Positions 5,842 through 53,213 of a stretch of DNA of 53,279 nt are shown piece after piece; position 1 is the first letter of the stretch; every line of letters begins with the position of its first letter. The position numbers and the translations under genes are program-made. Under the pieces are notes generated by a model. The model was not told where the DNA came from, made no database searches, and saw nothing but the letters and a program-made list of their open reading frames with translations. The DNA is from Candidatus Gastranaerophilales bacterium (GTDB taxonomy: Bacteria > Cyanobacteriota > Vampirovibrionia > Gastranaerophilales > Gastranaerophilaceae): positions 1-53,279 of the forward strand of contig CALUUN010000009.1 of the NCBI GenBank assembly GCA_944323995.1, in the 5' to 3' direction.

Positions 5842-5848
5842 TTTCTTA

Positions 5849-5854
5849 ATTATA
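5849..5854 (-). promoter_or_regulatory. -10 box of leaderless binding-protein gene
   Basis: TATAAT on the minus strand ends 7 nt before the ATG at 5841, and no Shine-Dalgarno sequence lies between them. Confidence 0.55.
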
Positions 5855-5992
5855 CTTTAAAATCAAACTTGTTTCAAGTTATGTCAAAGACCTGACAAAC
5901 TTCGCAGGATATGACTCATTTCAATAAATCCGGACGGCTAAAGAGATATATGAGTTTTTTAAGAGTTTTTCGCAACTATTCGGTTTACATGT

Positions 5993-5998
5993 TATAAT
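5993..5998 (+). promoter_or_regulatory. Extended -10 of leaderless rarA
   Basis: TGT-TATAAT ends 6 nt before the rarA ATG at 6005, so the message would start at the start codon. Confidence 0.6.
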
Positions 5999-6004
5999 CT
6001 GGTT

Positions 6005-7234
6005 ATGGATTTGTTTACCGAACTTGAAAACCAAAATAAGCAGGTGCCGCTGGCAGAAATTTTGCGGCCGAAAACTCTTGAAGACTTTTTGGGGCAGAGT
6101 AATGTTGTTGCGCCAAACAGTCCTATTTTGAATTTATTAAAAACAAACAGGCTGTTTTCTTTGATTTTCTGGGGAACTCCGGGGTGCGGAAAGACCACTC
6201 TTGCAAGGCTTATTGCAACAAAAACAAACGCAAATTTTATTGAAATTTCGGCCGTAACATCAGGCGTCAAAGATATTAAAGATGCCGTGGAAAGCGCAAA
6301 ACAGTCTTTAAGAGCCGGAGTTAAGACAATTCTTTTTATTGACGAAATCCACAGATATTCAAAAACCCAGCAGGATGCTCTATTGCCGCATCTTGAAAAC
6401 GGTACGCTTTTTTTGATTGGTTCTACAACCGAAAACCCTTCGTTTCAGGTTATTCCGGCACTTTTGTCAAGAGTTCAGGTAATAAGGTTAAACTCAATTG
6501 ATGATAAGAGCATGGAAAGCATTATAAAACGCGGTTTTGCATATCTTGCAAAGAATTATCTTCCTATGGATTGCGAATCCGGTGCCATTGATTTTATTGT
6601 AAATCTTGCCCGCGGGGACGCGAGGTATGCACTCAATGTGGTTGAAAACGCATATTTTGCAAGCGATTTGAAAGACGGACGCAGAAATCTTACGGTTAAA
6701 ATTATTGAAAGTATCTGCCAGAAACGCAACACAAGGTATTCGCAGCAGGAACATTATGACTGCGCATCGGCTTTTCAAAAGAGTTTGCGCGGAAGCGACC
6801 CTGACGCTGCGGTTTATTACCTTGCCAAAATGATTGCGGCAGGCGAAGATCCAAGATTTATTGCAAGAAGATTAATTGTCTGTGCGGCAGAAGATGTCGG
6901 ACTTGCAGACCCTGCGGCGCTTAATGTTGCCGTAAGCGCTTACAAAGCGGTTGAGCTTCTCGGGCTGCCCGAGGGGAGGATTCCGCTTGCTGAAGCGGTT
7001 ATTTACGTAGCGCGCGCCAAAAAATCCAATGAAGCTGCCTGCGCAATTGATTATGCGCTTCAGGATATTGAAAGCGGAAAAGATTTTCCGCCCCCGATGC
7101 ATTTGAGAGATGCTCATTACAAAGATGCCCAAAAATACGGTTTCGGAGTCGGTTATATTTATTCGCACGACGCGCCCGATGTTTATCAACAGTTTTTGCC
7201 TGATGAATTAAAAGACAGAAAATACACGCGGTAA
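6005..7234 (+). CDS. rarA: Replication-associated recombination protein A (AAA+ ATPase)
   Basis: RarA/MgsA is a clamp-loader-like AAA+ ATPase acting at stalled replication forks. The 409-residue protein has the usual length and order: PLAEILRPKTLEDFLGQ at the N-terminus, Walker A GTPGCGKTT (57-65), Walker B ILFIDEIHR (110-117), and sensor 1 LIGSTTENPSF. The C-terminal part has the family block AAEDVGLADPAAL and an ending with KYGFGVGYIYSHD. A TATAAT box just upstream sets the start. The next gene is 51 bp downstream with its own ribosome binding site. Confidence 0.96.
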   Translation: MDLFTELENQNKQVPLAEILRPKTLEDFLGQSNVVAPNSPILNLLKTNRLFSLIFWGTPGCGKTTLARLIATKTNANFIEISAVTSGVKDIKDAVESAKQSLRAGVKTILFIDEIHRYSKTQQDALLPHLENGTLFLIGSTTENPSFQVIPALLSRVQVIRLNSIDDKSMESIIKRGFAYLAKNYLPMDCESGAIDFIVNLARGDARYALNVVENAYFASDLKDGRRNLTVKIIESICQKRNTRYSQQEHYDCASAFQKSLRGSDPDAAVYYLAKMIAAGEDPRFIARRLIVCAAEDVGLADPAALNVAVSAYKAVELLGLPEGRIPLAEAVIYVARAKKSNEAACAIDYALQDIESGKDFPPPMHLRDAHYKDAQKYGFGVGYIYSHDAPDVYQQFLPDELKDRKYTR

Positions 7235-19691: not shown

Positions 19692-21530
19692 ATGCGAAGG
19701 GTTATATATGTTATCTTAATTTCGGTACTGATTCTGGGTCTTGCAAAAGCCTGTATAAGACGTGATATTCCGGAATCGGCAGCAGTGCGGAACAATATTC
19801 GGGCCGAAAAAGAAATTACATTTCCGGCTGACAGAAAAAATGTTACCGTAAACGGAATTGATTATCTTGAATCGCAGGCTCCCATAGGAACATTCGGCGG
19901 AACCTTTACCGCTTCAACAATCGGCGAAGGCCCTAAAACTTTTAATCCGTTTAATTCCAAAGACAATATTTCAACCGCGCTGTCAGAAATTATGTATGAC
20001 GGACTTTTGACAACACATCCTGTGACAGGTCAGCCAATCCCCAAACTTGCAAAATCTTTTTCTGTTTCCGATGACGGAAAAGAATACACAATAAACCTCC
20101 GTCACGGCGTCAAATGGTCTGACGGCAAACCGATTACCGCTGACGATGTTGTTTTTACCTGGCGTGATATAATTCTTGCCGGACTGGGCAATACATCAAT
20201 AAGAGATTCAATAATTGTTGACGGCAAGCTCCCGACCGTTCATAAAATTGATGATTATACGGTTAAATTTGTTACGCCCGAGCCTTTTGCACCGTTTATA
20301 AGAATGCTTTCATCTCCGATTGCGCCGAAACATGTTTTTGAACCGGCGGTAAAAAAAGGCAGCCGCTACTTTGACACCTTCCTTTCAACAAACACAAAAC
20401 CGCAGGACTTTGTAATTTCCGGAGCGTTCAAAATAAAAGAATACGTTCCGGCTCAAAGGGTGGTTTATGAACGTAATCCCAATTACTACATGATAAATAA
20501 AAACGGTGAAAAACTTCCTTATCTTGACAAACTTGTATATCTGATTGTGGGCGATCTTAATAACGAAGTTTTGAAATTCGAGGCAAAAGAGCTTGACATA
20601 ATAAATCTTCAAGGTTCAAAAGTTGCACGCTACAAAGCTATGGAGCCGCATTCTGATTTTACGATTTATAATCTCGGGCCAAATACCGGCACCATATATC
20701 TTTCGATGAATCTCAACAACCGCAAAAACGATAAAGGAAATTTTTATGTCGATCCGAAAAAACAGGCCTGGTTTAATGATGTGAATTTTCGCAAAGCCGT
20801 TGATTATGCAATTGACCGCAAAAATATTGTTTTGAATATCGCAAACGGAATCGGCGAGCCGCTTTTTACCGCTGAAAGCCTTAATTCGATTTTTTTGAAT
20901 AAAAATTTGAAGCCTTATGACAAAGATTTAAATAAGTCGCGTGAGCTTTTAAAAAAATCGGGTTTTCATTTGGATAAGCAGGGCAAATTATACGACAAAT
21001 TCAATAACCGCGTTGAATTTGACCTGCTTACAAATGCCGGAAACACGGAGCGTGAAGCCATCGGGGTAATGATTAAACAGGATCTGGAAGATTTGGGAAT
21101 GAAAGTAAATTTTAAACCGATTGAGTTTAATTCGCTTGTTAATAAACTTGTAAATACACTTGATTGGGATATGGTTCTGATGGGATTTACAGGCTCGCCT
21201 CTTGAACCTAACGGCGGAAAAAACGTTATGATGTCGGACGGAACGCTTCACGTTTACAATATGAGGCCGGAAAAAGATAAAAATTCACCGCGTTATGACT
21301 TTGAAAAAAAGATTGATGAATTGTTCATAAAAGGCGCGCTTGCAACAAAGTTTGAGGACAGAAAAAAATACTACGACGAATATCAGAAAATAATTTATGA
21401 TGAAAAGCCGTTTATTTACATTTATTCGCCGACAGTAATCGTTGCAATCCGCAACAAGTTCAAAAACGTGTTTCCGACATCTCTCGGAGGCGCAACGTAC
21501 AATATAGAAGAAATTTATACGGGAGAGTAA
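19692..21530 (+). CDS. Oligopeptide ABC transporter substrate-binding protein (family 5)
   Basis: This 612-residue protein belongs to the OppA/DppA family. It starts with a signal/anchor (MRRVIYVILISVLILGLAKAC), where Cys21 may be lipidated although the lipobox is imperfect. It then has ALSEIMYDGLLTTHPVTGQPIPKLAKSF (early lobe), YTINLRHGVKWSDGKPITADDVVFTWRD, and WFNDVNFRKAVDYAIDRKNIV, all family signatures. Two permease genes follow directly. No ATPase gene is in the window, so the OppD/OppF partners lie elsewhere. The ligand may be a peptide, but nickel or sugars are possible in this family. Confidence 0.92.
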   Translation: MRRVIYVILISVLILGLAKACIRRDIPESAAVRNNIRAEKEITFPADRKNVTVNGIDYLESQAPIGTFGGTFTASTIGEGPKTFNPFNSKDNISTALSEIMYDGLLTTHPVTGQPIPKLAKSFSVSDDGKEYTINLRHGVKWSDGKPITADDVVFTWRDIILAGLGNTSIRDSIIVDGKLPTVHKIDDYTVKFVTPEPFAPFIRMLSSPIAPKHVFEPAVKKGSRYFDTFLSTNTKPQDFVISGAFKIKEYVPAQRVVYERNPNYYMINKNGEKLPYLDKLVYLIVGDLNNEVLKFEAKELDIINLQGSKVARYKAMEPHSDFTIYNLGPNTGTIYLSMNLNNRKNDKGNFYVDPKKQAWFNDVNFRKAVDYAIDRKNIVLNIANGIGEPLFTAESLNSIFLNKNLKPYDKDLNKSRELLKKSGFHLDKQGKLYDKFNNRVEFDLLTNAGNTEREAIGVMIKQDLEDLGMKVNFKPIEFNSLVNKLVNTLDWDMVLMGFTGSPLEPNGGKNVMMSDGTLHVYNMRPEKDKNSPRYDFEKKIDELFIKGALATKFEDRKKYYDEYQKIIYDEKPFIYIYSPTVIVAIRNKFKNVFPTSLGGATYNIEEIYTGE

Positions 21531-22502
21531 GTGGATATCATAAAATACATATTGAAAAGAATAATCCAAACCATACCGCTTTTGATAATAGTGTCGTTAA
21601 TCAGCTTTTTTATAATAAGGCTGTCGCCGGTTGACCCGCTGGCCGAATTGCGGCTTAATCCTTCAGTATCACAGGAGACTCTTGAAAGAGAAGCTCAAAG
21701 GCTCGGGCTGGATAAACCGGTTATAGTTCAATACGGCAAATGGGCAAAATCATTTATAAAAGGTGATTTAGGGATAACTTCAAACGGCGAGCAGGTAAGC
21801 GCCAAATTAAAGGAAAGAATTCCGAATACGCTTTTGTTGACAGTTGTGGTTATATTTTTAACATGGGTTTGCGGAATTCCGCTGGGAATTTTGGCCGCTT
21901 TAAAATGGAAAACACCGTTTGACAGAATTTTAACGGTTTTGACAAGTATCGGAATGGCGATACCGTCATTTTTCTTTGCGGTTTTGCTTTTGATTTTTGC
22001 GGTGAGAACCGGCTGGTTTCCGGTCGGCGGTCTGACAGGTGCAAACTTTGCCGATATGGGGTTATTTTCTCAAATCAAAGATATAGCGCATCATTTATTT
22101 TTGCCTGTGGTTGTTTTATTTACGCTTTCGCTTGCGGGTTTGCAGCGCCAGATGCGGGCAAATATGCTTGACGTTCTGGACAGCGATTATGTGAAATTTG
22201 CGCGTGCCAAGGGTTTGAGTGAAAATCAGGTTATATATAAACATGCATTGAGAAATGCGGTTAATCCTTTGATTACCCTTCTGGGATTTGAATTTGCAGG
22301 TTTGTTGAGCGGAGCGGCTCTGACCGAATATGTTTTCCAGTATCCGGGACTGGGCAGACTTATTCTGGAAGCGGTTTTGAAATCAGATATAAATCTTGTT
22401 ATGGCTTCGTTAATGATGGGGGCAATTATGCTTGTTGCAGGCAATTTAATTGCTGATATTTTGCTTATCATTACCGATCCGAGGATTAGGGTGAAATCAT
22501 GA
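21531..22502 (+). CDS. Oligopeptide ABC transporter permease (OppB/DppB type)
   Basis: This 323-residue permease has the N-terminal helix YILKRIIQTIPLLIIVSLISF-type segment, the VQYGKWAKSFIKGDLG motif of OppB, five more membrane helices, and the EAA cytoplasmic loop ARAKGLSENQVIYKHALRNA. It begins with GTG one base after the binding-protein stop, following GGGAGAG, and overlaps the next permease by 4 bp. It forms the channel half with the OppC-type protein. Confidence 0.94.
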   Translation: MDIIKYILKRIIQTIPLLIIVSLISFFIIRLSPVDPLAELRLNPSVSQETLEREAQRLGLDKPVIVQYGKWAKSFIKGDLGITSNGEQVSAKLKERIPNTLLLTVVVIFLTWVCGIPLGILAALKWKTPFDRILTVLTSIGMAIPSFFFAVLLLIFAVRTGWFPVGGLTGANFADMGLFSQIKDIAHHLFLPVVVLFTLSLAGLQRQMRANMLDVLDSDYVKFARAKGLSENQVIYKHALRNAVNPLITLLGFEFAGLLSGAALTEYVFQYPGLGRLILEAVLKSDINLVMASLMMGAIMLVAGNLIADILLIITDPRIRVKS

Positions 22503-23563
22503 AAGAAGTAATAAAAGAACTGTTAAAAGACAAATTCGCAAAAGTTGCCCTGATTGTTCTCGGGATAATTTATCTTTCGCTTTTCTTTGCTGATTTTTTG
22601 GCACCTTATACAAAAGATTTTTCCGACAGATCAATGGCTTATGTTCCCCCGTCTAAAATTTTTACCATAGATGAAAACGGCAAGTTTTCAAGGCCGTATA
22701 CATACAATTATGTGAGAGAATTTAATCAAAACACGCTTGAGATGACGTATAAACTTGACAGGTCGCAGAAATATTACCTGAAATTTTTCTCAAAAGGACA
22801 GCCGTACAAATTTCTCGGAATAATTCCGATGAAGCGTCATCTGGTTACCGTGGAGCCTGAAGGAAGGCTGTTTTTGCTCGGTACTGACATCAACGGACGC
22901 GATGTATTTTCAAGACTGCTTTTCGGCGGAAGAATTTCTATGACAATAGGGTTTCTGGCATTGTTTGTGCTTTTCCCGATAGGGCTTTTGTACGGAGGAA
23001 TTTCGGGATATTTCGGCGGAAAAATCGACACTGTTATGATGAGATTTGCCGAAGCGGTTATGTCAATTCCGAGTTTTTATCTGCTGATAATTCTGGCGTC
23101 AATTCTGCCTTCGGGTATGACAAGCATACAAAGATTTATATTGATTGTAGTAATTCTTGCGCTTATCGGCTGGGCCGGTTTTGCGCGTGTTGTACGCGGC
23201 ATGGTTTTGTCAATAAAGAACAGAGAATTTGTTCAGGCGGCAAAATCAATCGGGCAGTCGCGGGCGGGAATAATAATAAAACACATACTGCCGCAGACAA
23301 CAAGTTTTGTAATTGTTGCGATGACTTTGTCGGTTCCTTCATATATTCTGTCGGAATCCGGCTTGAGTTTTTTGGGATTGGGAATTCAGCAGCCCGATGC
23401 AAGCTGGGGGAATATGCTAAAAGAAGCACAGGAGTTTACGAATATAATTTACAGACCGTGGCTTTTGACACCGGGATTTTTAATTTTTGTTGCGGTATTG
23501 GCATTTAACCTTATAGGTGATACAATAAGGGACGTATTGGATCCGAAAAGCAGGGTAAGATAA
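22499..23563 (+). CDS. Oligopeptide ABC transporter permease (OppC/DppC type)
   Basis: This 354-residue permease has an N-terminal helix, a large periplasmic insert (about 35-115, MAYVPPSKIFTIDENGKF onward) that is longer than in most OppC proteins, then LLGTDINGRDVFSRLLFGGR-type text (LGTDINGRDVFSRLLFGGR). The EAA loop is QAAKSIGQSRAGIIIKHILP. The ATG overlaps the upstream gene's stop. This pairs with the OppB-type protein. The insert could contact the binding protein. Confidence 0.93.
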   Translation: MKEVIKELLKDKFAKVALIVLGIIYLSLFFADFLAPYTKDFSDRSMAYVPPSKIFTIDENGKFSRPYTYNYVREFNQNTLEMTYKLDRSQKYYLKFFSKGQPYKFLGIIPMKRHLVTVEPEGRLFLLGTDINGRDVFSRLLFGGRISMTIGFLALFVLFPIGLLYGGISGYFGGKIDTVMMRFAEAVMSIPSFYLLIILASILPSGMTSIQRFILIVVILALIGWAGFARVVRGMVLSIKNREFVQAAKSIGQSRAGIIIKHILPQTTSFVIVAMTLSVPSYILSESGLSFLGLGIQQPDASWGNMLKEAQEFTNIIYRPWLLTPGFLIFVAVLAFNLIGDTIRDVLDPKSRVR

Positions 23564-24277
23564 ATGGAAGCATCAGGAATTTTTGATTTAACAATAATTA
23601 TAAGAGTAATTTCGGCACTTTTATTAGGGTTCGCAGTCGGGCTTGAACGTGAAATGACAAACAAATACGCAGGCTTGAGAACAAATATTTTAGTATGCCT
23701 CGGCGCGTGCGTATTTACTATAATCTCAATTTACGGATTTCCTGCAATCACGGTAACTTCCGTTGAGCTTGGAACCCGTGATACGGCGCGTGTTGCGGCA
23801 CAGGTTGTAACGGGTATAGGTTTTATCGGCGGCGGAACCGTTTTAAGACACGGGGCAACCGTTTTCGGGCTGACAACTGCCGCAACTTTATTTATGTCTG
23901 CCGCAATCGGTATGGCGTGCGGTGCCGGAATGTATGATCTGGCAATTGTTGCAACAATTGTTTCAATTATTACGCTTGTGTCGGTGAGATTTTTCGAAAA
24001 AAATGTACTCACATCAAGCACAAAGAATTTTAAAAGATTAAAAATTTCTTTGAACTGCCTTAACTCAAATTCTAACGAAATTTATGATCACATCGTGGAT
24101 AAATTCCCGAATTTGAAAGAGATAAGCAAAAAACAGAATAAATCGGAAGAAAATATGACAAAAATTGTTGTAATAACCGATGTTACATGCAGAAAACCGA
24201 TACAGACACTGTATAAAGAGTTTCAAAAGTTTGAAGGGATTGAATCCGTGTCCGTTCAGGAATTTTGTGAGGGATAA
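23564..24277 (+). CDS. MgtC/SapB family membrane protein
   Basis: This 237-residue protein has the MgtC N-terminal membrane domain: VISALLLGFAVGLEREMTNKYAG, RTNILVCLGACVFTIIS, ARVAAQVVTGIGFIGGGTVL and LTTAATLFMSAAIGMACG. The soluble C-terminal part (about 145-237) resembles an ACT-like regulatory domain. MgtC proteins influence magnesium or potassium homeostasis and F-ATPase activity, but the role here is not known. The ATG follows the OppC stop with no gap, so it is co-transcribed with the importer. Confidence 0.93.
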   Translation: MEASGIFDLTIIIRVISALLLGFAVGLEREMTNKYAGLRTNILVCLGACVFTIISIYGFPAITVTSVELGTRDTARVAAQVVTGIGFIGGGTVLRHGATVFGLTTAATLFMSAAIGMACGAGMYDLAIVATIVSIITLVSVRFFEKNVLTSSTKNFKRLKISLNCLNSNSNEIYDHIVDKFPNLKEISKKQNKSEENMTKIVVITDVTCRKPIQTLYKEFQKFEGIESVSVQEFCEG

Positions 24278-24325
24278 ATTTGATTATTCCGCATATTTCT
24301 GCTAGTATCAGGGAGGAGGAAAAAC

Positions 24326-25075
24326 ATGTCAGGACACTCAAAATGGTCAACCATTAAACATAAAAAAGCAAAAGTGGATTCGCAGCGCGCAGTTGTGTTT
24401 CAAAAATATTCAAGAGAACTTATAGTATCTGCAAGACTCGGCGGCCCGGATCCTGCCGGAAATTTCCGGTTAAGGACAGCGATAGAAAAAGCCAAAGCGG
24501 CGGGTTTGCCGAATGACAATATTAAACGCGCGATTGAAAAAGGTGCCGGAACCTCGGGTGCCGAAAACTATGAAGAATTAACTTATGAAGGATACGCACC
24601 GGGCGGTGTTGCAGTTGTAATTGAGGCAATGACAGATAACCGCAACAGAACAGCCGGTGATATCAGAAGCTATTTTACAAAATTCGGAGGAAGTTTGGGC
24701 GCAACCGGTTGCGTCGGCTGGATGTTCGACCAGAAAGGATCAATTTCTTTCGACAAATCGGTTGACTATGAAAAACTTTTTGAAGCCGCAATTTCGCTTG
24801 ATGCGGAAGATATTCTGGATGAAGAAGATGAGTATAAAGTTATAACTCCGGTTGAAAACTTTCAAAAAATAGTTGAAGGACTTGAAGCGGAAGGCTTTAA
24901 AAGCACAACTGCGGAACTTACAAGAATACCGCAGAATACCGTCGAAGTAACCGATGAAAATACGGCATCACAGATTATGAAACTTCTTGAGCGGATTGAA
25001 GAACATGACGATGTCCAAAATGTCTACGCAAACTTTGACATTCCGGATGAAATTCTGCAAAAAATTGAAGGATAA
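24326..25075 (+). CDS. yebC: YebC/PmpR family translation or transcription regulator
   Basis: YebC proteins are about 245 residues; this one is 249. It starts MSGHSKWSTIKHKKA, a family fingerprint, followed by RLRTAIEKAKAAGLPNDNIKRAI, and YEGYAPGGVAVVIEAMTDNRNRTA. Members act as transcriptional regulators or help ribosomes through proline-rich stretches (TACO1-like). It has GGAGGA 9 nt before the ATG. The diguanylate cyclase gene follows with no gap. Confidence 0.95.
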   Translation: MSGHSKWSTIKHKKAKVDSQRAVVFQKYSRELIVSARLGGPDPAGNFRLRTAIEKAKAAGLPNDNIKRAIEKGAGTSGAENYEELTYEGYAPGGVAVVIEAMTDNRNRTAGDIRSYFTKFGGSLGATGCVGWMFDQKGSISFDKSVDYEKLFEAAISLDAEDILDEEDEYKVITPVENFQKIVEGLEAEGFKSTTAELTRIPQNTVEVTDENTASQIMKLLERIEEHDDVQNVYANFDIPDEILQKIEG

Positions 25076-26287
25076 ATGTTAGAAAAAATCAAAAAACTTT
25101 CCAGACTTTTGAATGAAAGTTACAGCGAAAAATCCGTTGTGGCGTCTGTCGGGGAGTTTTTTGACGAAAACTTCGGCGCAAAAGAGTTTAATGTAATCTT
25201 AAAAGAAGATTACGCGGGTGAAAAGCCGCATTTTCCGCTGTATAAACATAATAAAATTATCGGGTATATCGAATTTTCAAACACTTCTCCGGAACTTGAA
25301 AAATTCCTTGATACCGCGATTTATCTGATATCTTTAAAAATTCAAAACATTGTGCTTTCCGAAAAAATGCAAAAAAGCATTGATTTTCAAAACGCAATGA
25401 AAAATATTGCAAAAATCATTGAAACCCAGTACGAATTAAATTATATAATCCCTTTGATGGGTGAAATGATTGATAAATTTATTCAGAACCATCTTATATA
25501 TATATTTATAAAAGTAAATAATAAATATAAACTTATGTGGCCTTCGGCATGCAGCGATTCAAAAGTTTTCGACATAATAAACGCGGAACCGTTAAAAAGA
25601 GTTACCACGGAAGACACCGGAGTTTTTCCGCTCATCAGTGAAAACAAACTGCTTGGATATATTGTTACAAAAAATCTTGATACAAAATTAAATCTTAAAG
25701 AAATTGAATATCTTGACGAGCTTACTCATCAGTCCGCAACAACGATAAACAGAGCAAACGTTTACGCGGAAATTTTAAAACACGCAACGCTTGATGCTCT
25801 CACGGGTTTTTATAACAGAAGGCAGCTGGAAGAACGTATAAAACAGGAAATTGCAAGTTCAAAACGTCAAAAGACGCCGCTTTGTGCGATTATGACCGAT
25901 ATAGATTTTTTCAAAAACGTTAACGACACATACGGGCATGCCGCGGGAGATAATGTATTGAAAGCGGTTTCAAAGGTTATGCGTTCACAGCTCAGGGAAT
26001 ACGATATCGCAGGACGTTACGGCGGAGAAGAGTTTGCAATCCTTCTTCCTTTCACAAAAGCAGCAGAAGCGCAGATGGTTGCGGAACGTTTGCGGCATGC
26101 CGTTGAAAATAAAGCTGTTAATATTTCAAAAAACGATTCTGACAAAAAAGAAATTCATGTTACGGTAAGTTTGGGCGTGTATGAATTTAAACACACTGAC
26201 AGCGAAGAAGATTTATTGAAAAACGCGGATAAAGCGTTATACAAAGCAAAAGAAACAGGAAGAAACAGGGTGGTTATATATGAATAA
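25076..26287 (+). CDS. GAF-like sensor diguanylate cyclase
   Basis: This 403-residue protein has a divergent GAF-like sensor region (about 100-230) and a C-terminal GGDEF domain. It has DALTGFYNRRQLEE (240-253), MTDIDFFKNVNDTYGHAAGD, and the active site GGEEF (316-320). An inhibitory RxxD site (R307-D310) precedes the active site by five residues, so product inhibition by c-di-GMP is expected. It makes c-di-GMP in the cytoplasm; no EAL partner is in the window. It overlaps tsaE by 8 bp. Confidence 0.92.
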   Translation: MLEKIKKLSRLLNESYSEKSVVASVGEFFDENFGAKEFNVILKEDYAGEKPHFPLYKHNKIIGYIEFSNTSPELEKFLDTAIYLISLKIQNIVLSEKMQKSIDFQNAMKNIAKIIETQYELNYIIPLMGEMIDKFIQNHLIYIFIKVNNKYKLMWPSACSDSKVFDIINAEPLKRVTTEDTGVFPLISENKLLGYIVTKNLDTKLNLKEIEYLDELTHQSATTINRANVYAEILKHATLDALTGFYNRRQLEERIKQEIASSKRQKTPLCAIMTDIDFFKNVNDTYGHAAGDNVLKAVSKVMRSQLREYDIAGRYGGEEFAILLPFTKAAEAQMVAERLRHAVENKAVNISKNDSDKKEIHVTVSLGVYEFKHTDSEEDLLKNADKALYKAKETGRNRVVIYE

Positions 26288-26753
26288 CAGATACGAAAAA
26301 ATTTGTCATAATCTTGACGAAACAAAAGAACTGGCGCAAAAATTTGCAAAATTAATAGAAAAAAAAGGGTGCTTTGTGAGTCTTTACGGTGAAATCGGTG
26401 CCGGCAAAACCGCATTTGTAAAACTTGCGGCAGATGCACTCGGAGTGAGAGAAAAAGTAACAAGTCCGAGTTTTGTTATCTTAAATGAATACCATACGGC
26501 AAAAATTCCGGTGTATCATTTTGATTTATACAGGCTGGAAAATGAAGGCGTCAGAACAATTCTCGACGAATTAAGAGAGTATTCGGAAGGCCGTCAGGCA
26601 ACTTTTGTTGAATGGGCGGAGTTTTCACAGGATGAAATTCCGTTCAACCATATAAAAATAAATGTAACATATGATGAAGATGAATCGAGAAAATATTCCT
26701 TTGAAGCCTTCGGTCATGATAATATAGAATTGTTAGGGGATTTGAGTAAGTGA
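26280..26753 (+). CDS. tsaE: tRNA t6A biosynthesis ATPase TsaE
   Basis: TsaE is the ATPase of the bacterial complex that adds threonylcarbamoyl to A37 of ANN-decoding tRNAs. The 157-residue protein has Walker A GEIGAGKT (37-44), VTSPSFVILNEY, VYHFDLYRLEN and FVEWAEF, which are family motifs. It overlaps the cyclase gene upstream by 8 bp and tsaB downstream by 4 bp, so translation is probably coupled. TsaD and TsaC are not in the window. Confidence 0.95.
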   Translation: MNNRYEKICHNLDETKELAQKFAKLIEKKGCFVSLYGEIGAGKTAFVKLAADALGVREKVTSPSFVILNEYHTAKIPVYHFDLYRLENEGVRTILDELREYSEGRQATFVEWAEFSQDEIPFNHIKINVTYDEDESRKYSFEAFGHDNIELLGDLSK

Positions 26754-27367
26754 AACTTTTAGTATTTGATACCTGTTTAGACAAAATGTATGTTGTTTTA
26801 AGAACTGAAGATAAGATTTTGTCGTCAAAAGTTGTTGAAAATACTGAAAGCAAATATCATTCGGCATTTTTAATTTCTACAATAAGAGAGGTTCTGACAA
26901 ATAACGATACAAGACCCGAAGATCTTGATGCAATCGGAATAAATATCGGCCCCGGAAGTTTCACCGGAATAAGAGCCTGCACAACGGTTGCCAGAGTTAT
27001 GGCGCAGCAGCTGAATTTAAAAGCGGCCGGTGTATCTTCACTGGAAATCCTTTCAAAAACAGGCGGTGAAAATCCGCTGGTGGCGCTTGATGCCAGAAAA
27101 AATAAAGCCTACCTTTATTATGATAATGAAATAAAAGGCGCTGTTGATCTGGAGGAAGTAAAAGAAATCATTTCAAAAGGGAATTATGACGTAATTACTG
27201 ATGACAGATTACAACCGGTTCTGGGCGGCAAATCATATCAGGCGGGAGATTATCCTCTCGGAGAGATTTTGTCGGATCTTGTGCTGGAAAAGTTAAAGAA
27301 CAAAAGCGGAAACTGGGCGGAATTGATGCCTCTGTACATCCAGCCTCCGCCGGTTTGTCAAAAATGA
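26750..27367 (+). CDS. tsaB: tRNA t6A biosynthesis protein TsaB
   Basis: TsaB is the non-catalytic partner that holds TsaD in the t6A complex. The 205-residue protein begins with GTG (KLLVFDTC), has YHSAFLISTIREVL, LDAIGINIGPGSFTGIRA (the ASKHA-like loop) and ALDARKNKAYLY. It is a little shorter than usual, with a brief C-terminus (YIQPPPVCQK). It overlaps tsaE by 4 bp. Confidence 0.93.
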   Translation: MKLLVFDTCLDKMYVVLRTEDKILSSKVVENTESKYHSAFLISTIREVLTNNDTRPEDLDAIGINIGPGSFTGIRACTTVARVMAQQLNLKAAGVSSLEILSKTGGENPLVALDARKNKAYLYYDNEIKGAVDLEEVKEIISKGNYDVITDDRLQPVLGGKSYQAGDYPLGEILSDLVLEKLKNKSGNWAELMPLYIQPPPVCQK

Positions 27368-27429
27368 TGTTGTCAGTTACGTTTTGTTACGGGACTGGCA
27401 ATTTTTTTATTCAGGGGAGTTAAAAGAAT

Positions 27430-28860
27430 ATGAGAATTTTACCGGTAAATTTATTTAGCATACAAAGGACAGAGAATAATCAGTATGATTATTCTCCTAA
27501 TAAGTATCTTATTAGGAAGCCTTCTTTTGACACGGTAAGTTTCAGCGGAAAATCCGCCATGACCGTAAAAGATTTCAAAAAACTCGGCAGATACATGACC
27601 TGTCTTTATTCCGGTGAAAAAATGCTCTCAAGCGACCAGCTGACAAAAATGAAAAAGCGGGGATTTTTTCAAGGCCCGATAAGCGAAGTTGTAAGAAAGC
27701 TGCAGCCTTACAAAAACAAATACCTTGAACCTGTCGAAAAAGAAGTTTTTGAACGAATAGAAAGAGCCTCAAAAGTAACTCCCGATATTGATCTTCCCCA
27801 GCTTTTCAAAACATGGTACACAATGACGCGATCAAACTTCAGAAAAACTCAAAAACCGAAATTTGATGCGATAAAAACACTCGGCGCACAGCTTCCGGAA
27901 GAATATATCCAGCCGTTTTTCAAATTCATGGAAACAGTTGACAAAAAACTTTATGATGAACCCGTCAAACAGGAGTTCAGCCTCAAAGAATTTACATATA
28001 AAATAACCAAAATTACCGACAGAATGTCCGATAACAACCTGAAAAACCGCATGCAAAAACTGCTTGAACTTTTGCATAACGAAAATCTGGTTTCAGGCAA
28101 AAAACCGCTCACTTCATCTTTTGTCAAACAGGTTTTTGATTTTAAAAACGTCAAAGTACCGGGCAGAAAATCAGCATACTACGAAAAGAATTACAAACAC
28201 TACGAAACCGAAAAAGACGCGGTGCGCATTGCAATAATTGATAAAATGCGAACTATTGCCGGCATGAAAGGGTATAAAAAGCTGGAAAAATTATGCCGTG
28301 AAAACATAGGCATGATAGAAGGTATTCCGGTTCACGTGCCGTTCAGTAACAAAGCATTTGTGTACGATCTGGACAAATTGCTGGAAAACATGCCCGATAA
28401 AGAACTCAAACAAAAAATGCTTGATGTAGCGATGAACCTTCCGACATCATCCAGAAGCGCAGACGCGTTAATATTGAAATTCAGGGATTCGGATCCGAAC
28501 ATTATCGGTGACAGATTGTTTAACCCGTCGCTTGTGTCACTTGAGCATTTGCGCCCGCAATCCGAAGGCGGCACCACAACAATTGCCAACTGTGCATTAG
28601 CCAAAAGACAGATAAATTCGGACAGACTAAGCAAACCGCTCTGGCTTGTGCTTTTGGATTATCCACTCAGAAACCAGCAAAAATACGTCAACAACCTTAT
28701 CAAACTCGTTGAAAGGCACAAAATCCACTACGAAGACGCGCTTGCACAGATTTTGACAATAGAAAGAGAAGGCCATATAAAACTCGACAAATCAAAACTC
28801 CGCAAAGTCGAAGATCCGCTTATGGAAAAATTAAAAGAGAAATTCATGGTAAAAGCCTAA
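27430..28860 (+). CDS. Large hypothetical protein with HNH-nuclease-like motif
   Basis: This 476-residue protein has a short Tyr/Asn-rich start, a FDTVSFSGK motif (about 34-42), a long Lys-rich helical body (about 45-350), and near the C-terminus SLEHLRPQSEGGTTTIANC (about 376-394). This resembles the core of HNH nucleases (the catalytic His, the P-x-x-x-GG and the Asn), but zinc-knuckle cysteines are missing. The start has GGGG-AGTT upstream (CAGGGGAGTT). No signal peptide is seen. A nuclease role is possible, but no immunity or secretion gene lies beside it. I cannot name the family. Confidence 0.6.
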   Translation: MRILPVNLFSIQRTENNQYDYSPNKYLIRKPSFDTVSFSGKSAMTVKDFKKLGRYMTCLYSGEKMLSSDQLTKMKKRGFFQGPISEVVRKLQPYKNKYLEPVEKEVFERIERASKVTPDIDLPQLFKTWYTMTRSNFRKTQKPKFDAIKTLGAQLPEEYIQPFFKFMETVDKKLYDEPVKQEFSLKEFTYKITKITDRMSDNNLKNRMQKLLELLHNENLVSGKKPLTSSFVKQVFDFKNVKVPGRKSAYYEKNYKHYETEKDAVRIAIIDKMRTIAGMKGYKKLEKLCRENIGMIEGIPVHVPFSNKAFVYDLDKLLENMPDKELKQKMLDVAMNLPTSSRSADALILKFRDSDPNIIGDRLFNPSLVSLEHLRPQSEGGTTTIANCALAKRQINSDRLSKPLWLVLLDYPLRNQQKYVNNLIKLVERHKIHYEDALAQILTIEREGHIKLDKSKLRKVEDPLMEKLKEKFMVKA

Positions 28861-28963
28861 AGATTAACAAATGTAAATTTTTCTTGCTTTTTTATAAAAA
28901 TCATTAAATTTTTACAGGAAGGTTTCCGATTATTCATGTGTACACAGAATAGGGAATAGTCTC

Positions 28964-29251
28964 ATGGCAGAAGCAGGATTTTCATTTAACAGACCATATA
29001 AACCGTTCGGATTGAACGTAAAAGTACCGGAAAGAACACTAAAACAGGCCGGAGAAACGTTAGGCAACCTTGCAAAAGGGCCGGCTGACCCGCTTTTCAA
29101 ATTTTTGGAAGAAAACGAACAGGTGTTCAACGGCGATTTGAACTTCCAGATAAACCGCATAAGCGCCCAGAGTTTTACCATAGGTTCGGCAATGCGTATG
29201 GAAGACGAAAAGATGAACGGAATGCCGCCGTCGTTTGATATGCATTTTTAA
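28964..29251 (+). CDS. Small hypothetical protein
   Basis: This 95-residue protein begins MAEAGFSFNRPYKPFGLNV and has a basic, Gly/Pro-containing first half, then FLEENEQVFNGDLNFQINRISAQSF and a Met-rich end (MRMEDEKMNGMPPSFDMHF). I do not recognise it. A terminator hairpin follows at 29271. The start ATG has GGGAATAG upstream, only a weak ribosome binding site. Confidence 0.5.
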   Translation: MAEAGFSFNRPYKPFGLNVKVPERTLKQAGETLGNLAKGPADPLFKFLEENEQVFNGDLNFQINRISAQSFTIGSAMRMEDEKMNGMPPSFDMHF

Positions 29252-29270
29252 TATAGTCTACATAAGATAG

Positions 29271-29293
29271 AAAGGCCCGACGAGGGCCTTTTT
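29271..29293. terminator. Bidirectional terminator between convergent genes
   Basis: AAAGGCCC and GGGCCTTT pair around GACGA, followed by T runs on both strands. It separates the small gene ending at 29251 from the XRE gene ending at 29292. Confidence 0.85.
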
Positions 29294-29567
29294 AGTAGTG
29301 TTCTTCTTCAAATATTTTAAAATCCTCGGGGATGATTTTTTCAATATGCGAAAATAATTCCGACATCGACCACCCGAACCCTTCCGCTATCTTTTTTAGG
29401 GTAACAAGCTGAGCCTCGTTGTCGCCCTTTTCAATGCGCGAAAGTGTGGAACGCGGAACATCATTTTCATAAGCAAATAAACAAAGACTTTTTTGTGTAA
29501 ATTCTTTGCGCAGTTGCCTGATGGCATTGCCTACAATTTTACAATAATTTTGTTCCCGTTCATTCAT
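29292..29567 (-). CDS. XRE-family helix-turn-helix regulator
   Basis: This 91-residue DNA-binding protein has a Cro/C1-type HTH: IRQLRKEFTQKSLCLFAYENDVPRSTLSRIEKGDNEAQLVTLKKIAEGFG (shown in parts: NDVPRSTLSRIEKG, LVTLKKIAEGFG). There is no other domain. It is divergent from the diversified prepilin gene at 29672, and two similar palindromic sites lie in the 104-bp gap. It is therefore a candidate repressor of that gene and of itself. Confidence 0.85.
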   Translation of the reverse strand: MNEREQNYCKIVGNAIRQLRKEFTQKSLCLFAYENDVPRSTLSRIEKGDNEAQLVTLKKIAEGFGWSMSELFSHIEKIIPEDFKIFEEEHY

Positions 29568-29599
29568 GTAAAGAAATATACCTTTCGCTTAACATAAAT

Positions 29600-29616
29600 A
29601 TTCCATATATGGGATT
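29600..29616. promoter_or_regulatory. Operator-like palindrome 1
   Basis: ATTCCATATATGGGATT contains the palindrome CCATATATGG. It overlaps the expected -35 of the prepilin gene and the likely start of the XRE transcript (minus-strand TATAAT at 29614-29619). Confidence 0.5.
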
Positions 29617-29623
29617 ATAATGA

Positions 29624-29629
29624 TATAAT
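29624..29629 (+). promoter_or_regulatory. -10 box of the complete diversified prepilin gene
   Basis: TGA-TATAAT lies between the two operator-like sites. Transcription would start near 29636, and AAGGAG at about 29659 serves as the ribosome binding site before the ATG at 29672. This gene is therefore not leaderless. Confidence 0.55.
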
Positions 29630-29640
29630 CATTTCGGATG

Positions 29641-29657
29641 TATCCCATATATGAGAT
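29641..29657. promoter_or_regulatory. Operator-like palindrome 2
   Basis: TATCCCATATATGAGAT is, in reverse complement, nearly the same as palindrome 1 (shared core CATATATGGGAT). It lies just after the predicted transcription start, a repressor-like position. Confidence 0.5.
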
Positions 29658-29671
29658 AAAGGAGAGAAAAT

Positions 29672-30739
29672 ATGAACAAAAAAGCATTTACGTTGGCAGA
29701 GGTGCTGATAACTCTTGCAATTATAGGAATTGTCGCAGCGCTGACTATACCGACATTAATTCAGAATTATCAGGAAAGAGCATGGAACACTGCATCACAG
29801 GTGTTCCAGAGAAAACTCGGTGAAGCATTAAGAGTAATGAATGTTCAAGGAACCTTAGCAGGCTATACAACAACAGAAGCGTTTGTTGATGAATTATCTA
29901 AACATATTAAGATAACAAGAATATGCGATAACGATGATATCACAACATGCTTTTCAGATACCGTAACCTGGGGTGATGAAGAAGTTGACATGTCTAAAGT
30001 TAAAAAAGCTAAAAACTTCGGACAAAACGACTGGGATACAAATACAGTAGCAGTACAATTTGCAAACGGTGTGAACGGTGTAATAGCATACAACCCAAGT
30101 TGTACGCAGAACCAGTTCAGTAATGATGTAATAACAATAGGAGAAACCGGAATAGGTACAAACTGTCTTGCAATATTATATGATGTAGACGGATTTAAGA
30201 ACCCTAATACCAAAGATAAAGATTTAAAGAATCTAAATGTAACAAGTTTAGGGGGCAGCAACTGTGCAATAGAGTTAAGTGACGGAACATGTTTCACCGC
30301 ACCGTTCTATCCAACAGCACATGTATGGAACGGTTGTGATGCAAACGGAACAACAAGTGATCCTGATGACTTAGCATTTATGAGTGAGCACAATATTCAA
30401 TATTGCATGACATCAAGCTATGGAACAAATGATTACTGGGCAGGTGCAGTAAAAGCATGCCATGATATGGGCTCAAGTTTACCGAGTGATACAGAACTGA
30501 TGAAACTTGCAGAAGAGTTATATCAAGACACAAGCAGACCCTTCTCTGGCAATAGAGATAACGACCTTGCAGTATCAATGGGATTCATCACCTCTCCCGG
30601 CTCATCGTTTTGGGTTTGGTCCAGTGAGGAGTACAGCAAGCACTACGCGTACAACCGCTACTTCTACTCCACGAACCCGGGCCAGAGCTACTACCCCCGC
30701 AACCGCAGCATCAGTCAGGCGGTGTGCTTAGCGGAATAG
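29672..30739 (+). CDS. Diversified prepilin-like protein, copy 2 (complete)
   Basis: The 355-residue protein begins MNKKAFTLAEVLITLAII, a class III prepilin leader (Glu at the +5-type position), with a membrane helix to about residue 28. A middle domain (about 35-235) contains Cys pairs. The C-terminal C-type-lectin/FGE-like domain (about 235-355) carries DYWAGAVKAC, DMGSSLPS, NDLAVSMGF and WSSEEYSK. The last 40 residues, from Trp316, form a hypervariable face with a fixed QAVCLAE end. Residues 5-142 are identical to copy 3 despite silent DNA changes. AAGGAG lies 9 nt before the ATG. It is probably a pilus-displayed adhesin under XRE control and retargeted by a DGR; the ligand is unknown. Confidence 0.88.
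   Translation: MNKKAFTLAEVLITLAIIGIVAALTIPTLIQNYQERAWNTASQVFQRKLGEALRVMNVQGTLAGYTTTEAFVDELSKHIKITRICDNDDITTCFSDTVTWGDEEVDMSKVKKAKNFGQNDWDTNTVAVQFANGVNGVIAYNPSCTQNQFSNDVITIGETGIGTNCLAILYDVDGFKNPNTKDKDLKNLNVTSLGGSNCAIELSDGTCFTAPFYPTAHVWNGCDANGTTSDPDDLAFMSEHNIQYCMTSSYGTNDYWAGAVKACHDMGSSLPSDTELMKLAEELYQDTSRPFSGNRDNDLAVSMGFITSPGSSFWVWSSEEYSKHYAYNRYFYSTNPGQSYYPRNRSISQAVCLAE
30617..30739 (+). other. DGR-type variable region, copy 2
   Basis: These are the last 41 codons of the gene. Variable codons fall at 30632-30715 and the constant end at 30716-30739. Substitutions relative to the other two copies are at codon positions 1 and 2 in codons that would be AAC, AAG or AAT in a template. The deduced residues at variable sites are mainly Tyr, Asn, Ser, His, Arg, Pro, Gly, Gln, Thr and Ile. 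Confidence 0.88.
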
Positions 30740-30746
30740 CATGTGT

Positions 30747-30756
30747 GCCGCAAGGC
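30747..30756 (+). other. Mini-hairpin with GCAA tetraloop after the variable region
   Basis: GCC-GCAA-GGC lies 8 nt after the stop codon. The same GCC-GCAA-GGC lies after the stop of copy 3. Some DGR targets have a GNRA/GRNA-type hairpin after the variable region that helps target recognition, but here the stem is only 3-4 bp. Confidence 0.4.
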
Positions 30757-30772
30757 TCGAGAAGATATATTT

Positions 30773-30812
30773 AAAAAGCGGTATTTGTGGCATTTCACAA
30801 GTACCGCTTTTT
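30773..30812. terminator. Terminator hairpin shared by copies 2 and 3
   Basis: AAAAAGCGGTA pairs with TACCGCTTTTT, then TTGTG with CACAA, around a GCATTT loop. A matching hairpin follows copy 3 at 51832-51869. It ends in T runs in both directions. Confidence 0.8.
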
Positions 30813-30823
30813 AATAATAGCAC

Positions 30824-31047
30824 AGCCTCTCCCCTTGTGGGAGAGGCAGAATTTCAACACGAGGAACGAGTGTTAGAAATTCAGGTGAGGGGTAATTTGA
30901 GAATTTTATGCATATTTAGACCCCTCACCCGCATTTGTAGTTCACTGCGTTCACACAACTGCGGCCTCTCACCTTCACTTTGTTACGGAAGCAGGCTCAC
31001 ACAACTCGTTCCTCGTTGGTTCGCTTTGCTCCTCAAGGGGAGAGGCT
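30824..31047. repeat. MITE-like element with 14-bp terminal inverted repeats
   Basis: The 224-bp stretch begins AGCCTCTCCCCTTG and ends CAAGGGGAGAGGCT, a perfect 14-bp inverted pair. Inside, GGTGAGGGGT (30884-30893) and ACCCCTCACC (30920-30929) form another inverted pair. No ORF resembling a transposase is seen. The left end recurs at 545-567. It is a candidate non-autonomous mobile element. Confidence 0.55.
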
Positions 31048-31315
31048 ATTCTGCCGTAAAATTTGTCATGCTGAACTTGTTTCAGCATCTTGCAACCGTT
31101 ATAGAATTGTAGGTCGGATTTACTAATCCGACAACTTCTCACCGGAATTTCTAACCTATGGAAACCCGCCATATTACAGCTTAAGCCCCCCACCCCAGCC
31201 CTATCCCCTCAAAGGGAGGGGATTTCAGGCAAGTAACTAATTTTTGAGCAAAGCGATTTCTTTACCCGTTTCACTCACCTTTGTGATATAATCAAACAGG
31301 TAAGGAGTATAAAAA
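31048..31315. other. Gene-free spacer with small inverted repeats
   Basis: This spacer contains the hairpin-forming ATGCTGAACTTGTTTCAGCAT (about 31069-31089; ends ATGCTGAA and TTTCAGCAT) and GTCGGATT...AATCCGAC (about 31113-31132). It then has a C-rich stretch and the promoter region of the dehydrogenase (TATAAT about 31285-31290). I see no gene. Confidence 0.5.
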
Positions 31316-51905: not shown

Positions 51906-52028
51906 CTATTCCGCTAAGCACACTGCCTGAAAGTGGCTGTAGTAGCGGTAGTTGTGGTACCAGTACGTGGTCGTGGAGTAGAAGTGGCGGCCGTACGCGG
52001 CGTACTTGCTGTCCTCCTCACTCGACCA
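51906..52028 (-). other. DGR-type variable region, copy 3
   Basis: These are the last 41 codons on the minus strand, with variable codons at 51930-52013 and the constant end at 51906-51929. Codons differ from copies 1 and 2 almost only at first and second positions. One third-position change is in the constant end (GCG to GCA), possibly drift after the last homing event. Confidence 0.85.
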
Positions 52029-53213
52029 CAGCCATAACGAGTCGCTGGGAGAGGAGATAAATCCCATTGATACTGCAAGGTCATTATCTCTGTTTGCATA
52101 TTCATAGGACGTAGTTGCGCCTGATATTGGTGCGTCATATAATTCGTTTGCTAACGCTGTTAACTGTTCCTGACTCGGTAATGATGATCCCATATCTTTA
52201 CATGTTTTTACTGCACCTGCCCAGTAGTCATTTTTGCCATAGGGTGAATACATGCAATATTGAAGACCATATTTACTCATAAATGCTAAGTCATCAGGAT
52301 CACTTGTTGTTCCGTTTGTGTCACAAGCATTCCAAACATGTGGTGTTGGTATAAAAGGTGCAGTGAAACATGTTCCGTCTGATAGTTCTATTGCACAGTT
52401 GCTGCCCCCTAAACTTGCTACGTTTAGTCCTCTTAAATCTTTTTGCTGGGTATTAGGGTTCTTGAATCCGTCTACGTCATACAGTATTGCAAGACAGGTT
52501 GTGCCTATGCCGGTTTCGCCTACTGTTATTACATCATTGCTGAATTGGTTCTGTCTGCAATCGGGATTGTATGCTATTACACCATTCACTCCGTTTGCAA
52601 ACTGTACTGCTACCGTGTTTGTATCCCAGTCGTTTTGTCCGAAGTTTTTAGCTTTTTTAACTTTAGACATATCAACTTCTTCATCACCCCAGGTTACGGT
52701 ATCAGAAAAGCATGTTGTGATATCATCGTTATCGCATATTCTTGTTATCTTAATATGTTTAGATAATTCATCTACAAATGCTTCTGTTGTTGTATAACCT
52801 GCCAAGGTTCCTTGGACATTCATTACCCTTAATGCTTCACCGAGTTTTCTCTGGAATACTTGTGATGCAGTGTTCCATGCTCTTTCTTGATAATTCTGAA
52901 TTAATGTCGGGATTGTCAGTGCTGCAACAATACCGATTATTGCAAGAGTGATTAATACTTCCGCAAGAGTAAAGGCTGCCTTTTTGCGCTTACTGTCACA
53001 TTTTATCGGTTTTGCGATTGCGACGTCGCTTCGCTCCTCGCAATGACAGGACGTGCTGTCATTACGAGCAGACGCAGTCTGCGTAGTAATCGCATTGTCG
53101 CTGCAATTTACTAATCCCGCAAATGCACTCTGCGCGGTGCTTTTGCTTATCGCTTTACTCCTAAATACCCCGAAACCCGCACGGTGAGAGCTTAAAGAAG
53201 TACCCCCCCCCAT
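51906..53213 (-). CDS. Diversified prepilin-like protein, copy 3 (unusual 5' end)
   Basis: The frame is open from an ATG at 53213 to 51906 (435 codons). Residues matching copy 2 begin only at about residue 79 (KKAAFTLAEVLITLAII), so the prepilin leader sits behind 78 residues of repeat-derived sequence including SCHCEERSDVAIAK. No ATG lies near the usual leader start. From AFTLAEV through VIAYNP (138 residues) it is identical to copy 2; then the lectin-like domain and a variable C-terminus (Trp396 onward) follow. Either the leader is long, an unusual start is used, or the copy is silent. The G9 tract next to the ATG makes phase variation possible. Confidence 0.65.
   Translation of the reverse strand: MGGGTSLSSHRAGFGVFRSKAISKSTAQSAFAGLVNCSDNAITTQTASARNDSTSCHCEERSDVAIAKPIKCDSKRKKAAFTLAEVLITLAIIGIVAALTIPTLIQNYQERAWNTASQVFQRKLGEALRVMNVQGTLAGYTTTEAFVDELSKHIKITRICDNDDITTCFSDTVTWGDEEVDMSKVKKAKNFGQNDWDTNTVAVQFANGVNGVIAYNPDCRQNQFSNDVITVGETGIGTTCLAILYDVDGFKNPNTQQKDLRGLNVASLGGSNCAIELSDGTCFTAPFIPTPHVWNACDTNGTTSDPDDLAFMSKYGLQYCMYSPYGKNDYWAGAVKTCKDMGSSLPSQEQLTALANELYDAPISGATTSYEYANRDNDLAVSMGFISSPSDSLWLWSSEEDSKYAAYGRHFYSTTTYWYHNYRYYSHFQAVCLAE
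53021..53105. repeat. REP-like palindromic repeat in the 5' part of copy 3
   Basis: It contains AATGACAG...CTGTCATT (53042-53063), GCAGAC-GCA-GTCTGC (53068-53082) and CTTCGCTCCTCGCAATGAC. Its reverse complement translates to CHCEERSDVAI, a well-known sign of a repeat read as protein. Related pieces occur at about 586-645 and 51768-51782. Confidence 0.7.

Follow-up and report, generated by a model that had tools for sequence, protein, structure and literature searches.

The best explanation of the intergenic region 29568-29671 is, with good though not decisive probability on the sequence comparisons below, that an XRE-family protein acts as an autoregulated repressor, resembling lambda CI and the controller proteins of R-M systems, which binds two operators, O1 and O2, and gates a divergent prepilin gene. 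As part of the same explanation, the pair would be one of many paralogous, one-to-one XRE/prepilin modules that are lineage-specific to Gastranaerophilaceae and that each have their own operator word. Here, the window is the whole 53,279-nucleotide stretch of DNA that was analysed.

The locus and its two putative operators

The intergenic region divides the XRE gene, on the minus strand, from the prepilin gene, on the plus strand. The features of the locus are as follows.

28964..29251, plus strand: 95-aa gene next to the XRE, conserved and without a Pfam match; marker of the orthologous locus
29292..29567, minus strand: XRE regulator gene (ORF, 91 aa); single HTH_3 domain and conserved acidic tail
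29600..29615: putative operator O1, 16-bp near-palindrome ATTCCATATATGGGAT; covers the prepilin −35, centre at the predicted XRE transcription start
29601..29606, plus strand: prepilin −35-like word TTCCAT, 17 bp from the −10 (sequence and promoter survey)
29614..29619, minus strand: predicted XRE −10, a perfect TATAAT; predicted start near 29607
29621..29629, plus strand: prepilin extended −10 TGaTATAAT, hexamer 29624-29629 (sequence and promoter survey)
29642..29657: putative operator O2, 16-bp near-palindrome ATCCCATATATGAGAT; shortly past the predicted start of prepilin transcription; ~42 bp upstream from that of the XRE
29672..30739, plus strand: prepilin gene (ORF, 355 aa), the presumed regulated cargo; PF07963, E 3.5e-6
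29677..29777: stretch that should contain the breakpoint at which the DGR prepilin joined the old XRE/prepilin locus (from the limits of similarity and collinearity)
30606..30731, plus strand: DGR variable region (VR) of the prepilin, by comparison with the C19 template

The XRE protein matched the HTH_3 domain (PF01381) with an E-value of 4.2e-7 and 30.3 bits, above the cut-off of 23. The prepilin possessed the N-terminal cleavage/methylation motif (PF07963, 26.8 bits, cut-off 21.2). Besides the prepilin, the neighbours of the XRE gene were the 95-aa gene and a 476-aa gene, the latter likewise without a Pfam match.

O1 and O2 each differed from the consensus ATCCCATATATGGGAT by one base, and their centres were 42 bp apart. 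The earlier note on this DNA had described two matched 17-bp sites in opposite orientations. Both sites are real, with a length of 16 bp rather than 17. The 12-mer CATATATGGGAT occurred exactly twice in the window, at 29604-29615 on the plus strand and at 29642-29653 on the minus strand, and the apparent orientation merely reflects which arm of the near-palindrome has the odd base. As that note had claimed, the sites flank the prepilin −10, with O1 and O2 on either side of the extended −10 element, and copy 3 of the DGR prepilin (51906-53213, minus strand) has neither of them. The claimed overlap with the likely start of the XRE gene applied to its predicted transcription start, at ~29607, on which O1 is centred; the start codon, at 29567, is clear of both sites.

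In searches allowing up to two mismatches, the 12-mer gave six matches in the window alone versus 3.09 expected and was thus not rare. At the same tolerance, O1 and O2 were the sole matches of the 16-mer in the whole 1.75-Mb genome, and nine further places matched at three mismatches. A reversed 16-mer, used as a control, had no match in the 1.75-Mb genome.

Conservation of the operators in relatives

The earlier note had also proposed that the motif be sought elsewhere in the genome and in relatives. The pair of sites is unique in the genome, and relatives have kept it next to the same XRE. G005, which belongs to the same genus, has an XRE protein with 80% identity and both operators at the same spacing. 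Candidatus Gastranaerophilales yielded 16 named loci with an orthologous XRE. Both operators, defined as lying within three mismatches of CCCATATATGGG, were kept in 14 of them; one locus has a single operator and one has none. Some of these named loci share genomes with other loci counted (e.g., L230 and G005). Measured from the XRE start codon, the operators in the orthologous loci mostly lay at ~40 and ~82 bp. A prepilin was recognised across them in 11 of the 16; on that side, three of the five others had <310 bp of contig.

The exact double-site pattern occurred in 18 of 383 family genomes, once in each, and a control pattern in none of the 383. The pattern is strict, such that the lack of a match in the other 365 genomes does not mean that the XRE is absent. 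All 18 double sites adjoined an XRE that was 66-100% identical to that of the window. A prepilin was recognised at 11 of them; the other seven comprised three contig ends, an internally shortened prepilin, a locus where a polynucleotide phosphorylase was nearby but no prepilin was detected, and two loci with a different first ORF. The sites therefore persist, across genera, beside the same XRE and a prepilin. That they are chance palindromes in AT-rich intergenic DNA, as the frequency of the 12-mer in the window might suggest, has a negligible probability because the 16-mer is unique, is conserved across genera and had no control match over 383 genomes.

Two side observations concern individual loci. 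In L260 (G304), L236 and L267, the prepilin has been shortened or lost and the XRE is kept. L244 (FR900446.1), titled Fusobacterium sp. CAG:439, has the XRE/prepilin/phosphorylase locus and groups with the Gastranaerophilales loci; its name is probably wrong.

A family of XRE/prepilin pairs

The 1.75-Mb genome contained 82 prepilin N_methyl matches, many of them 340-450 aa long, which is an unusually large repertoire. Eight of the nine XRE homologues found in this genome with the window protein were divergent from a prepilin, where ~1.4% pairing is expected at a random stranded position (binomial P 1e-14, assuming an independence that paralogues violate). A profile search gave 14 XRE matches in the same genome; the pairing figure covers nine of these. 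The profile, made from 12 XREs that were mostly prepilin-paired, matched 134 of 146 family genomes, with up to 26 matches per genome. A class-wide search gave weak matches only outside the family, spread over 13 genomes at one or two apiece.

Across the family, a divergent prepilin was present at 96 of 154 XRE loci, most at 62-146 bp from the XRE start. These loci are the best-scoring listed matches (146) plus eight from the window's own genome, and not a random sample. According to the first motif used, 58 loci had no prepilin; a looser motif gained three, and five were short of sequence. The unpaired loci were at contig ends or had decayed genes or other first ORFs.

Operator words and positions

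The subfamilies of pairs have their own palindromes, including CCCATATATGGG, TATCGCGWACGCGATA, TTCTATATATAGAA, TGTCTATATATAGACA, TGTATATATACA, TTTCC-centred ones and others. Each of two other operators that we searched for occurred at one place in the genome. Promoters of the prescribed form, a −35 word and a −10 separated by 17 bp, were found in 70 of 92 pairs, of which 35 were left after near-identical ones were dropped. In these 35 regions, the two highest well-separated peaks of dyad symmetry were at −16.5 and +24.5 from the −10, at 4.43 and 5.43 of 8 matches, respectively, versus a maximum of 3.40 in 200 shuffled sets. Lesser peaks exceeding 3.40 also occurred near the −10 itself and beside +24.5. 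The right half of O1 resembled the O2 of its own locus (5.40 of 8 versus 3.96 when permuted; 0 of 5000 permutations). Some subfamilies had one clear palindrome only.

Prepilin promoters without an XRE were considered as a clean negative control and provided a partial contrast only: a palindrome score of 7 or 8 of 8 was obtained at 9 of 23 such promoters versus 55 of 92 paired ones. The 23 came from 30 loci, with five XRE-paired and two unread loci left out.

Operator similarity correlated with XRE similarity in the recognition helix (r 0.55) and in the rest of the protein (0.54), both at 0 of 5000 permutations. The partial correlations were 0.26 (13 of 5000) for the helix and 0.24 (27 of 5000) for the rest of the protein. 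That the recognition helix alone determines specificity is unsupported, the rest of the protein correlating equally well. These coupling statistics, which do not single out the helix, would suit a reading in which another factor binds the palindromes and the XRE is a mere neighbour. We consider that reading improbable: within one XRE subfamily, the operator is constant and the prepilin varies, and an XRE adjoined every double site found (18 of 18).

Promoter layout and proposed mechanism

All transcription starts discussed here are predictions from −10 positions. O1 lies over the prepilin −35, and O2 starts a few bases past the expected prepilin start, which is near 29636. On the other strand, the predicted XRE start, near 29607, coincides with the centre of O1, and the centre of O2 is ~42 bp upstream of that start. 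Across the pairs, XRE-strand −10 candidates were concentrated 40.5-42.5 bp from the centre of O2 (9, 7 and 7 occurrences), modestly above the AT-rich background, in which other single positions reached at most 7. The word TTGCAT served as the −35 in 41 of 92 XRE/prepilin pairs. It is the reverse complement of ATG CAA, with which XRE genes of the family can start, such that the start codons and the −35 box share six bases. The mRNA of these genes may be leaderless.

In the proposed mechanism, the 91-aa XRE, probably as a dimer, would bind O1 and O2 beside its own gene. Occupation of O2, just past the prepilin start, and of O1, over the −35, would silence the prepilin, a repression that the promoter geometry makes likely. 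Likely, too, is autorepression from O1, where a bound XRE, centred on its own predicted start, would limit its own synthesis. The earlier note's suggestion that a divergent repressor switches both genes is well supported by comparison: the sites, XRE and prepilin stay together in relatives, whereas a lack of such conservation would, by that note's own criterion, have refuted it.

The converse reading, in which the XRE activates the prepilin, has a low probability. The prepilin −35 is weak (TTCCAT), and XRE-family controller proteins are able to activate, according to passages of PMC4321490. Nevertheless, the centres of O1 and O2, at ~28 and ~13 bp, respectively, lie on the downstream side of the usual activator position, and the prepilin −10 is extended and perfect.

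Repression of the prepilin would be compatible with two kinds of control of the XRE gene itself. A site ~42 bp upstream of a start is the usual place of an activating dimer, and lambda CI and the R-M controller proteins sustain their own synthesis. With O2 at about this distance upstream of where the XRE is predicted to start, activation from O2 is possible, and an XRE bound there may sustain its own synthesis, yielding a self-maintained switch. Positive feedback with two stable states is speculative, and we put its probability somewhat under one half. According to a simpler scheme, with neither positive feedback nor two states, the XRE represses both promoters by plain negative autoregulation and keeps pilin at a steady low level. 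Self-repression alone is common among small XRE proteins, O1 coincides with the predicted start of the XRE and O2 with that of the prepilin, and the subfamilies with a single clear palindrome also fit. This scheme has a nearly even chance of being correct; what speaks against it is that in many pairs O2 sits at approximately −41 relative to the predicted start of the XRE, which exceeds the needs of simple repression, and that the second site is conserved.

A changing cargo and the DGR prepilin

Prepilins beside orthologous XREs were often just 25-50% identical to one another, and among the orthologous loci only the prepilin of the window has a DGR variable region. Of the 126 positions of the VR, 20 did not match the C19 template, and 16 of these 20 were at template adenines (43 adenines in 126; P 6e-6). 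The same template fits copies 1, 2 and 3 of the window, with 14 of 15, 16 of 20 and 17 of 21 differences, respectively, at adenines. The C19 DGR cassette (G000:C19:18000-25618, L112) comprised a prepilin target, an Avd-like gene, the template repeat (L112 4873-4998) and a reverse transcriptase. The Avd-like gene scored 70.6 bits, slightly below the NCBIfam cut-off of 80.

The usual gene order in relatives was the 95-aa gene, XRE, prepilin and polynucleotide phosphorylase; within the 16 named loci, the phosphorylase was within reach in 11 and the 95-aa gene in 12. In the window's genome, the phosphorylase gene sits on another contig, and no former prepilin was found beside it (C2:198830). DNA collinearity with G005 extended from 19699 to 29777, ending within the first 106 nt of the prepilin gene, and from 29677 onwards the sequence resembled copy 3 and the C19 DGR prepilin. 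These two limits would put the breakpoint within the prepilin gene, in its conserved 5′ portion. It appears that the DGR prepilin came under the old switch through a break within the gene's first ~100 nt, and we infer that a rearrangement in this conserved 5′ end replaced the original prepilin. The DGR target is apparently a recently acquired cargo, its link to the switch being incidental.

Resemblance to the 3′ end of the VR was detected at 23 places in the genome, one of them at the C19 template and two in XRE-paired prepilins. Of the 92 XRE/prepilin pairs examined, two had a VR-like end, both in the window's own genome, the test pattern being fitted to the template of the window's own genome, such that other DGR types would escape it. 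The earlier note's link between the switch and a mutable adhesin was not conserved: in relatives, another prepilin, which lacks a DGR variable region, occupies the divergent position. A restriction of display to certain conditions, as that note proposed, is conceivable. The switch goes with prepilins generally, not with the DGR. A role of the XRE as a regulator tied to DGR targets was rejected on the 2 of 92 count, and one as a global regulator of all prepilins on the uniqueness of its operator in a genome with 82 N_methyl matches. That the XRE regulates prepilins, or DGR targets, in general is accordingly very improbable. Those 82 matches and ~22 VR-like ends could have a common regulator, but the operator occurs here only, and the two other operators are also unique.

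Other DGR-related features were observed. A second DGR-like reverse transcriptase was present at G000:C8:52000-58771 (L113), with an Avd-like ORF (5599-6027, minus strand) recognised by eye. Past the prepilin, window positions 30741-31300 contain non-coding repeats (91% over 140 bp) that also occur in the C19 DGR region. The contig starts inside one DGR prepilin copy (1-518) and ends just past another (51906-53213); the assembly breaks probably fall in DGR prepilin repeats.

Implications

More broadly, Gastranaerophilaceae might hold a library of insulated, lambda-like two-state switches, one XRE per prepilin, in which regulator and operator co-diverge and prepilin bodies are swapped under the switches by 5′-end recombination. 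We regard this wider picture as rather unlikely in full. If true, individual cells could switch each of their pilin genes on or off independently of the others and pass the setting to their descendants, and a DGR-mutable pilin could be plugged into an old switch, combining regulated display with targeted hypermutation. The locus studied here would show a hypermutable pilin brought under such a switch. The family points to a way in which these uncultured gut bacteria, relatives of cyanobacteria that carry dozens of prepilin genes, could select the pilins that they display. As a paralogous series in which the operator word varies and the promoter geometry is fixed, it is useful for reading the HTH_3 recognition code, and the pairs are a source of mutually independent switches.

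In the titles, abstracts and passages covered by the literature searches, we found no description of a lineage-specific family of one-to-one XRE/prepilin switches. Passages of PMC5877343 and PMC3874152 were consulted besides those of PMC4321490. Among DGR surveys, pilin was unmentioned in the searched passages of PMC8144416 and was mentioned once in those of PMC6642488.

Comparison with known systems

The XRE protein is predicted to fold as a five-helix HTH (pLDDT 92), with high confidence save for the tail. The HTH ends near residue 78 and is followed by a tail of ~13 residues. The acidic tail is conserved at residues 76-87, with F83 present in 18 of 19 sequences (from a 20-sequence non-redundant set). 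We saw no ligand- or signal-sensing domain in the 91 residues, so the signal, if any, would be the level of the XRE, its turnover or an unknown partner. The shared acidic tail is a candidate for a common input.

By both profile and fold, the closest solved relatives are R-M controller proteins, with C.BclI superimposing at a Z-score of 12.6 over 76 residues (rmsd 1.9). These proteins (C.BclI, C.AhdI, C.Esp1396I and the long-spacer C.Csp231I and C.EcoO109I) are likewise small, single-domain HTH_3 proteins with two palindromic operators at their own promoter. According to passages of PMC4321490, the two operators mediate activation and then repression of that promoter; the C.Csp231I sites are 15 bp long and 18 bp apart, and the EcoO109I spacer is 25 bp, an operator spacing close to that of O1 and O2. 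The geometry of the XRE locus is compatible with activation then repression of this type. The locus differs in that the regulated gene is a divergent prepilin and in that each genome has many paralogues, whose operators differ. Among the XRE neighbours examined, there was no gene for a restriction enzyme or a methyltransferase; relatives have the polynucleotide phosphorylase.

The small HTH_3 regulators SinR, HipB and RstR share the fold and gave weak profile matches, but the locus has no SinI-like partner and no adjacent toxin gene. Against NCBIfam models, the XRE scored below every cut-off, that of couple_hipB included. DGRs with pilin-like targets resemble the locus in that the prepilin VR differs from the C19 template chiefly at adenines and that an Avd-like gene and a reverse transcriptase adjoin the template. 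They differ in that the XRE is not a DGR component, and nearly all of its relatives adjoin prepilins without a VR.

The lambda CI and P22 C2 repressors act at divergent, overlapping promoters with several operators, one of them near −42 of the repressor's own promoter. The XRE differs from them in having no CI-type C-terminal oligomerisation/cleavage domain, and no phage genes were seen among the listed ORFs around it. Nevertheless, P22 C2 was among the fold matches of the XRE, and the locus shares with these repressors its divergent, overlapping predicted promoters, its several putative operators and the position of one of these near −42 of the regulator's predicted promoter.
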